DNA of 64,000 nucleotides. Origin: a bacterium BMS3Bbin05 (GTDB lineage Bacteria; Nitrospirota; Thermodesulfovibrionia; Thermodesulfovibrionales; BMS3Bbin05). Made by a program: the position numbers and the translations under genes. The DNA lies in contig BDTO01000036.1 of the NCBI GenBank assembly GCA_002897855.1, positions 1 through 64,000 of the forward strand, in the 5' to 3' direction. Below, in pieces: positions 32,778 to 38,797 of this stretch (within the stretch, counting starts at the first letter, position 1; each line of letters opens with the position of its first letter). The notes beneath the pieces were generated by a model that was not told the origin of the DNA, ran no database searches, and was given only the letters and a program-made list of their open reading frames with translations.

Positions 32778-34745
32778 TTGCATTTCCTGAAAAAATTATC
32801 CCTAACAAAAAAGTTTTTTTTGGGTATCGGTATCATCTTAGTATTGTTCTGGGCTTTATTCAGTTATTCTACGTATGTATATCTAAGGGAAATCTATAAA
32901 ACCGAAGCTTTCAGCAAAACCAATCTTCTGTATCAGCAAATCCAGTCAACAATAAAATATATCAGAGATGACCTCAGGCCTACAATGTTTCATATCCTTC
33001 CTCACAACCAGTTTATTATAGAAGCAATGTCCGTATCGTTCATTACAAAAAGTATTATGAGCGATTTCAGAAAGAAACATCCTAATGTTATATACAGGAG
33101 GGTTTCCGACAATCCATTGAATGGGGAAAATATGGCGAACAGGAGAGAAAATAAATTCATTAATTATTTCCGCGATAACAGAAAGAGTGTTTTCTGGAAA
33201 GGCATCATCAAAGACAATAATATGAAATTCGCCGTTCATGCCAAGCCTGTTATTATGGAAAGCGAGTGTCTGCCATGCCACGGCAAACCCGCAGATGCTC
33301 CTGATATGCTGAAAAAAATATATGGAACTACGAGCGGATTTAATAAAAAAGTAGGCGATATAATAGGCATTGAATACCTTGCATTGCCTCTTGATAAAAC
33401 ATTTACGCAGATAAAAGACCTCTCCTTTTCGATATTTATTGCAGGTATAATCGGTATGATGCTCATGTTTATCGCTATCAACTCATTAATCAATATTGTT
33501 GCAGTCCGGCCTATTGGCAAGATCAGATCATTCTTTAAATCAGTAGTAGATGGGAATAAAGGTTTTGATTCCAAGATCGCCATCAGAAGCAAGGATGAAA
33601 TTGGTGAACTGGCGAATTCTTTCAACACGATGATGGAATACCTTAAAAAGTCAAAGAATGAACTGATCAGCTCCGAAAAAAAATACCGCCAGATATTTGA
33701 AGGCTCCAAAGATGCAATAATCGTTGCCGATTGCCTTGGTTACGTTCAGGAAGCTAATAAGGCGGGCAGAGAACTTCTTGGCTGGAAAGAAACGGATATT
33801 GCTGATAACTCAAGATACCTCTTTGATGTGTTTTTGAACAGCAGTGATTATGATAAATTCATGTCGGATATGGAAAATAACGGGTATATAAAGGATTTTG
33901 AAGTGCGGCTTTTATCTGCCGAAGGTAATGTTGCCGATGTCCTGATGAGCGCAAATTACAGGGAAGACGAAAGCAGGCAGATTTGTGGTTTTGAGACGAT
34001 GATAAAGGACATCACAGAAAGGAAGAGATTAATAAGGCAGGTCTATGAAGCAGAGAGGCTTGCTGCTATGGGTCAGCTTGCAGCGGGTGTTGCACATGAG
34101 ATCAACAATCCGCTGAGCATAATTCTCGGATATACATCCCTTCTTCTCGAGAATGATTCTATAAATGGGCTTGTCAGGAAAGACCTGCAAACTATATATG
34201 GCAACGCAAATTCCTGCAAAAAAATCATTGAAGACCTTCTGAGTTTTTCCCGGGTTACAGAAACAAGACTCGGATATGATAATATTAATTGCCTTATTGA
34301 CTCAGTACTGGATATGCTTACCTATGAGTTTGAAAAAAAGAAAATAAGTATTGTCAGAAATTATTGTCCTGATATTCCTCCCCTATTAATTGACAGTGAC
34401 AAGATCAGGCAGGTTATTCTTAACTTATTGATAAATGCATGCCAGGCAATAGACGAAAATGGCACAATCAGTGTCTTGACATCTTATGACACAGTGAACA
34501 ATATGGAGGTTATTAAGATTTCCGATGACGGGTGCGGCATTGGCGAAGAAATAAGAGAGAAGATATTTGAGCCTTTTTTTACTACCAAGCCTGTTGGAGA
34601 AGGAACCGGACTCGGGTTATCGGTCAGTTATGGATTGATAAAGGAACATGGTGGAGATATCATTTCCGAAGATACAGGAGATAAAGGCGCTGCTTTTACT
34701 ATCAGGCTTCCTTTGAACGCTCAAAATATTAATAATAAGGATTAA
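32778..34745 (+). CDS. Sensor histidine kinase with periplasmic DUF3365/Tll0287-like domain carrying CxxCH, HAMP, PAS, HisKA, HATPase
   Basis: N-terminal [21 protein letters not shown] region, [26 protein letters not shown]. Confidence 0.85.
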
Positions 34746-36148: not shown

Positions 36149-36245
36149 ATAATTTCACCTCGATGACCACAATAAAACTGCATGTCAATTTATGCACTGC
36201 AACCTTATTATTGCGCCTGATATTATCGTTGTCCTGTCTCCAATA

Positions 36246-36259
36246 AAGTAAGCTTACTT
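36246..36259. promoter_or_regulatory. Perfect 14-bp palindrome AAGTAAGCTTACTT, candidate activator site
   Basis: Lies 54 bp upstream of the sigma-54 -24 element. Confidence 0.45.
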
Positions 36260-36313: not shown

Positions 36314-36329
36314 TGGCACAATGATTGCT
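36314..36329 (+). promoter_or_regulatory. Sigma-54 promoter TGGCAC-AATGA-TTGCT
   Basis: Exact match to TGGCACN5TTGCW. Confidence 0.85.
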
Positions 36330-36356
36330 ATTAAATATAAAAAAAGGGGGTGATAT

Positions 36357-36398
36357 ATGAACAAAGACAGAACAAAGACACAAGGATGTTATCTTTAA
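36357..36398 (+). CDS. Possible 13-aa leader peptide MNKDRTKTQGCYL
   Basis: Preceded by GGGGG SD-like tract; between the sigma-54 promoter and the first operon gene. Confidence 0.3.
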   Translation: MNKDRTKTQGCYL

Positions 36399-36425
36399 TT
36401 TTAAATCCTGAATGGAGGTAAATGT

Positions 36426-36620
36426 ATGGCTGAAGAAGAGAAAAAAGAAATGTCAGGGACAGGAACCTTGACAGGTGCAGCATTGGAGGCAGAGGATGTT
36501 CTTGCGGACGCCGAGCCCTGGGAGCCTATCGAGACAAAACTCGTCGTCTGGTCCCTTGTAGTAGCCGTCATAGCATTGTTAATAGGTCTGGTAGTAGTGC
36601 CAACCTCTATCTTACATTGA
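36426..36620 (+). CDS. Small single-TM membrane protein
   Basis: SD ggaggt; acidic N-term plus hydrophobic LVVWSLVVAVIALLIGLVVVP. Confidence 0.7.
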   Translation: MAEEEKKEMSGTGTLTGAALEAEDVLADAEPWEPIETKLVVWSLVVAVIALLIGLVVVPTSILH

Positions 36621-36880
36621 TCATGATGAATATCATGATGGATATGGTGATAAGACATGACGGTAAAAACTGGGTTGTTGAGAATGATAAGTTGACCTTA
36701 AGCGCTCCCACAATTGACGGGATTGACGAAAAAGTCAGGACCTTCATGAGGCAAAACGAACTGGTCAAAAAGGGGGATAAATCAAAGGTGCGCATGCTGT
36801 TTGACAACTCAACGATACCTCAGTGGATCCGTCAATATGGTCAACATTATTTCAACAGGGTGATAGAGGTTGAAGGTTAG
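36617..36880 (+). CDS. Small conserved-looking soluble protein (tentatively DUF5395-like)
   Basis: HDGKNWVVENDKLTLSAPTIDGIDEKVRTFMRQ; start codon uncertain. Confidence 0.6.
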   Translation: MIMMNIMMDMVIRHDGKNWVVENDKLTLSAPTIDGIDEKVRTFMRQNELVKKGDKSKVRMLFDNSTIPQWIRQYGQHYFNRVIEVEG

Positions 36881-38620: not shown

Positions 38621-38797
38621 ATGGGAAACAAGCCTGAAATAACAGAATCTACCGCAACGGAGTTTGTCCTCGTTAAAGACAAATCCGGAAAAGAATATGT
38701 ATGTAAGCTTTCAGATCTCCAGGATGCATCCGGACTTACAGACGAAGTCAAAAAGAAATGCATCGAAAATATTGAAGAAGCATCAAAAGATCTATAG
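38621..38797 (+). CDS. 58-aa acidic protein MGNKPEITESTATEFVLVKDKSGKEYVCKLSDLQDASGLTDEVKKKCIENIEEASKDL
   Basis: SD ggagagagag directly upstream; too short for the ORF track in this frame. Confidence 0.65.
   Translation: MGNKPEITESTATEFVLVKDKSGKEYVCKLSDLQDASGLTDEVKKKCIENIEEASKDL

Follow-up and report, generated by a model that had tools for sequence, protein, structure and literature searches.

A conserved sigma-54 promoter, probably served by a heme-c Cache two-component system, ahead of a YeiH-like transporter operon in bacterium BMS3Bbin05

Overview

The motif TGGCACAATGATTGCT, which lies in the 64,000-nucleotide stretch of DNA analysed here (the window), is very probably a working sigma-54 promoter of an s1-DUF5395-YeiH operon driven by the two-component system encoded beside it. 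Judged from sequence comparison across orthologous loci, our confidence is high both for the promoter and for its linked regulator, moderate for the assignment of nearby palindromes as enhancers, and low for the signal, the substrate and the function of the leader. The features on which this reading is built are collected in Table 1.

Table 1. Features of the kinase-regulator-operon region, in window coordinates.
Feature	Position	Strand	Basis
Sensor histidine kinase: Tll0287-like (sCache_heme) domain with CLPCH, HAMP, PAS, HisKA, HATPase	32778..34745	+	PF11845, E 2.4e-30
NtrC-type response regulator: receiver, Sigma54_activat, Fis-like helix-turn-helix	34748..36148	+	Pfam
Enhancer (UAS) candidate 1, TGCATGTCAATTTATGCA	36179..36196	.	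Paired palindrome, all 15 same-strand loci
Enhancer (UAS) candidate 2, TGCAACCTTATTATTGCG	36198..36215	.	Centre 19 bp from candidate 1
Predicted sigma-54 (-24/-12) promoter, TGGCACAATGATTGCT	36314..36329	+	Exact consensus, cross-locus conservation, rpoN in genome
Leader element AAAAAGGGGGTGATA, extended Shine-Dalgarno-like	36341..36355	+	At predicted RNA 5' end, 70 nt before first gene
s1, 64-aa membrane protein: acidic N-terminus, one hydrophobic segment; first operon gene	36426..36620	+	Orthologues in place
DUF5395 protein, second gene	36617..36880	+	PF17373, E 3.4e-28; position conserved
Divergent YeiH-like (PSE, Cons_hypoth698) membrane transporter, 531 aa	36939..38534	+	PF03601
s2, 58 aa, often next after YeiH, same order	38621..38797	+	Orthologues 64-73% identical, several loci

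The promoter motif and its genomic context

The first-pass annotation had described TGGCACAATGATTGCT as matching TGGCACN5TTGCW at all fixed positions, and the sequence was found in the window exactly as described. Its GG (36315-36316) and GC (36327-36328) are 10 bp apart, the spacing required by sigma-54, so that transcription is predicted to start at about 36340. It is the single zero-mismatch match in the 64 kb window, and the 26 matches with up to two mismatches are at chance level (25.6 expected). Base composition predicts 0.046 exact matches in a stretch of window length and 1.8 in the whole genome; hence, the exact match is by itself suggestive only, and it is conservation across orthologous loci that raises TGGCACAATGATTGCT above chance.

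The first-pass annotation had also proposed a genome scan for rpoN and for further -24/-12 sites. Three exact matches to TGGCACN5TTGCW were found genome-wide and none to a reversed control pattern, while the relaxed pattern TGGCAYN5TTGCW gave 17 matches against 4.2 expected (control: 0), many of them outside long reading frames and immediately 5' of a gene. A nifB-like gene follows the second exact site, and the third precedes an lptC-lptA-lptB-rpoN cluster (all genes named by eye from their translations). The latter site falls between aroE and lptC (L076:7345-7360, equivalent to G000:C36:117344-117359), and rpoN may thus be under its own control. The rpoN gene, whose absence from the genome would have spoken against the promoter, is present on the same contig (G000:C36:120396-120869; PF04552, E 2.3e-60), and the genome encodes 21 full-length sigma-54 activator domains.

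Conservation of the site across orthologous loci

Orthologous loci were drawn from genomes of the same order and from GTDB genomes including Desulfobacterota. The s1-DUF5395-YeiH module is conserved across these loci. In the Nitrospirota group and in Thermodesulfatator, the kinase and regulator genes precede it on the same strand; in several Desulfobacterota they are divergently oriented. Among 12 site-anchored loci (window included), mean pairwise identity is 0.92 at the fixed -24/-12 letters, 0.39 in the 5-base spacer of the promoter, and 0.28 and 0.29 in the DNA upstream and downstream of the site; whole-intergenic identity to the window ranges from 0.38 to 0.51. Since the fixed letters are kept at 0.92 next to flanks at roughly chance identity (0.28), conservation of the site is selective and not residual.

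The site also follows the regulatory genes. A site before s1 (score >=13) is found in 20 of 23 loci with a linked kinase and regulator versus 1 of 12 without them (Fisher p 9e-6), although the loci share descent, so that this and the shuffle p values given below overstate independence and serve as guides only. Promoter and kinase/regulator pair co-occur across genera and phyla. Together with rpoN and the conservation of the site, this co-occurrence supports the earlier proposal of a sigma-54 promoter for the YeiH operon.

The exceptions are a weaker site (L046), a short contig that holds the kinase end only (L055), and L056, where a consensus-like site, TGGCATCATATTTGCT, lies 105 bp after the regulator gene and before an inserted gene ahead of s1. 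This inserted gene is rhodanese-like (named by eye) and would bring a sulfur-transfer gene into the operon. Conversely, two loci that lack a linked regulator, L048 and L075, have a site-like sequence. When L073, L036, L074 and L045 were scanned in operon orientation, only L074 was without a site.

The YeiH proteins of the window and of L073 (genome G059, another family) are 91% identical, while their regulators share only 61% and their kinases 48% identity; in G001, from the same genus, only a distant homologue is present. The operon may have been transferred between families.

The regulator, the sensor kinase and the candidate enhancers

The adjacent regulator had been called NtrC-type in the first reading of the sequence, and Pfam agrees, finding receiver, AAA+ and Fis-like helix-turn-helix domains. 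PF00072 and PF00158 score over their cut-offs and HTH_8 just under its curated cut-off (E 8.8e-4). The protein reaches the cut-off of none of the NCBIfam models shown, among them the equivalog for NtrC proper (NR(I); 371.3 bits, cut-off 558.6). Its sigma-54 contact loop reads GAFTSA instead of GAFTGA, a reading shared by all 14 Nitrospirota-group regulators with the same-strand arrangement (window included); the loop is GAFTNA in Thermodesulfatator and GAFTGA in 5 of 6 loci with the divergent arrangement. A literature search found no single paper in which GAFTGA and GAFTSA appear together. In the kinase, the c-type heme motif CXXCH (CLPCH in the window) is kept in 16 of 16 sequences examined. 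As promoter and palindromes recur ahead of the corresponding transporter genes in many sulfur-bacterial relatives, this heme-containing sensor probably controls the sulfite-type exporter of the operon.

Between the regulator gene and the promoter lie TGCATGTCAATTTATGCA and TGCAACCTTATTATTGCG, centred ~126 and ~107 bp before the promoter. Paired 17-18-bp palindromes of the form TGCAA-N7/8-TTGCA occur upstream in 15 of 15 loci with a same-strand regulator, their centres 58-206 bp before the promoter and mostly 18-23 bp apart (p 0.003-0.03 across these loci against shuffles; p=0.007 in the window). The tandem TGCAN9-10TGCAN0-4TGCAA has one match in the 2.46 Mb genome, at the window site, with 0.7 expected. 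An 18-bp variant, TGCYAAC-N4-GTTRGCA, is found in Thermodesulfatator and several Desulfobacterota (L050, L053, L054 and L067; weaker in L040), and the regulators of the loci carrying it are 42-49% identical. Apart from L048, where the variant is present, no locus lacking a linked regulator has either type of palindrome. Because the palindrome changes with the diverged regulator and is absent from unlinked loci other than L048, the module's own regulator is the likely binder, and the TGCAA palindromes are probably its enhancer sites.

A perfect 14-bp palindrome between the enhancers and the promoter, AAGTAAGCTTACTT (36246-36259), was rejected as an enhancer since it was not seen in relatives. 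In L039, the ~1 kb between regulator and promoter includes several hundred inserted bases, which lie between the regulator gene and the otherwise conserved enhancers and promoter.

The arrangement resembles the NtrBC, ZraSR and AtoSC types, in which a kinase is likewise paired with a receiver-AAA+-Fis regulator and paired palindromic enhancers lie upstream of a -24/-12 promoter. The NtrC box is TGCACC-N5-GGTGCA, and the TGCA-N9/10-TGCA spacing of the palindromes resembles it. Unlike NtrC, AtoC and ZraR, the regulator described here falls under the NCBIfam equivalog cut-offs, and the system differs from all three types in its heme-c Cache sensor, its transporter target and the GAFTSA loop of the Nitrospirota-group regulators.

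Proposed mechanism and alternatives

In the mechanism that we favour, a membrane kinase whose heme-c Cache domain faces the periplasm would respond to redox or NO and phosphorylate the NtrC-type regulator. The regulator would bind the tandem palindromes at 36179-36215 and, via DNA looping and ATP hydrolysis, open the sigma-54 polymerase complex, with RNA starting near 36340. The operon product would probably be a membrane complex exporting a sulfite-like anion. We counted against this reading the GAFTSA loop, the number of activators in the genome, the unlinked sites in L048 and L075, and the ~1.8 exact matches per genome expected by chance.

A second explanation holds that the promoter is real and answers to another activator of the genome, while the neighbouring kinase and regulator control something else. 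One of the other full-length activators could act at the promoter, and the site and palindrome in L048 imply that linkage is not obligatory. Nevertheless, linked regulator and site co-occur, palindromes stand between the two in every same-strand locus and are altered in sequence where the regulator has diverged, and the divergent Desulfobacterota arrangement still keeps regulator and site together, all of which makes this explanation quite improbable. That the motif is a chance match, with the operon transcribed either from a housekeeping promoter or by transcription continuing out of the regulator gene, is the least credible explanation: the expected number of chance matches (~0.05 per window) would allow it, as would the finding of no terminator-like site between regulator gene and operon, but the one sigma-70-like plus-strand site found upstream scores weakly (9/12) and the cross-locus comparison contradicts it, since the site is conserved at the same position while the sequence around it is randomised.

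The operon and the probable function of its transporter

Under the favoured reading of a promoter driven by the adjacent two-component system, the first gene transcribed would be s1. Its orthologues are mostly 60-80% identical and occupy the same position, and the protein has no Pfam or NCBIfam match. DUF5395, the family of the second gene, is not named in the literature searched. The transporter scores 56.8 bits with PF03601 (cut-off 24.5) and 31.6 bits with TIGR00698 (YeiH), far under the cut-off of 232.6; no solved structure was found for it by sequence. It is possible that s2 is the last gene of the operon.

Export of a sulfite-type anion is our best guess at what the operon does. Sulfite handling fits with the presence of dsrA, over cut-off, in 13 of the 15 genomes of this order that carry the operon. 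The genome from which the window comes gave no match over cut-off for dsrA or aprA; the assembly is 93% complete, and gaps in it or gene loss would account for this. The same-genus genome G001 has aprA.

In Salmonella, a YeiH-family membrane protein that confers sulfite resistance is controlled by the adjacent regulator YeiE (PMC12880088). YeiE is a sulfite-binding LysR-type protein, whereas the regulator here is a sigma-54 activator, and the transporter here is far under the YeiH cut-off and is accompanied by s1 and DUF5395. In the sigma-54 regulome of Desulfovibrio vulgaris Hildenborough, nine operons encode TSUP or PSE transporters of unknown substrate, PSE being the YeiH family, and two of the PSE operons are co-regulated with lactate genes (PMC4641369, main text). 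The main text of that paper contains none of the terms heme, DUF or TGCA, and the operon described here differs in being found in genomes of the Nitrospirota type and of other Desulfobacterota.

The sensor family has been treated in a 2026 preprint, which describes sCache_heme (DUF3365/Tll0287) as a heme-c Cache domain that has the properties of an NO sensor in fusions with signalling modules, and as enriched in Nitrospirota and Desulfobacterota (PMC12889525). Those sensors share with the present kinase the same Pfam domain and a conserved CXXCH; in the parts of the preprint consulted, there is no target operon of the s1-DUF5395-YeiH kind, and its text makes no mention of sulfite.

A Shine-Dalgarno-like element in the leader

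The first-pass annotation had placed an SD-like GGGGG just after the predicted start. The resemblance holds for GGGGG at 36346-36350, but it is not the ribosome site of the operon, as s1 (36426) uses GGAGG at 36414-36418. The GGGGG is part of AAAAAGGGGGTGATA, which makes 13 of 15 possible anti-SD pairings (G-U allowed; shuffle p=0.004) and is almost fully complementary to the 16S rRNA 3' end, for which the general consensus was used in place of this genome's own 16S. Scores of >=12/15 occur in 14 of 23 promoter-bearing loci, 44-90 nt before s1, and none of 41 control regions upstream of genes reaches 13. An alignment of seven sequences shows GGNGGTG to be invariant, no start codon is conserved 3' of the element, and no known RNA family was detected in the leader up to E=1. 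A leader peptide behind GGGGG (ATG at 36357, 13 codons, MNKDRTKTQGCYL) was rejected, as most relatives lack a well-placed start or a similar peptide (by eye).

The closest parallel is the STAB-SD of cry3A, a 5' mRNA stabiliser of Gram-positive bacteria that involves RNase J1 (reviewed in PMC4113751). STAB-SD is a Shine-Dalgarno-like leader sequence that does not initiate translation; the element described here is likewise Shine-Dalgarno-like and in most loci lies close to where the RNA is predicted to begin. Unlike STAB-SD, it is tied to the first gene and not to the 5' end in L038, L039 and L056, where it stays near s1 and away from the promoter; in L035, s1 itself uses a similar sequence as its ribosome site. 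Because the element tracks s1 in the former three loci, its role is ambiguous, and it could equally well be a standby ribosome site or act on translation in some other way.

Significance

That sigma-54 controls PSE and TSUP transporters is already known, as the main text on D. vulgaris documents (PMC4641369). The specific assignment of sensor, regulator, site and operon was not found in the literature searched. A more general model, in which a heme-c Cache (NO/redox) system drives sigma-54-dependent sulfite-type export in sulfur bacteria of at least two phyla, with a non-initiating ribosome-binding leader that protects the RNA or regulates translation, is tentative and, taken as a whole, doubtful. 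The leader element constitutes a separate small puzzle. The assignment would link a recently described family of heme-c Cache sensors to a defined target operon and DNA site, and would make testable the target of the sensor, the partners of DUF5395 and s1, and the regulation of YeiH-type transporters in sulfur bacteria.
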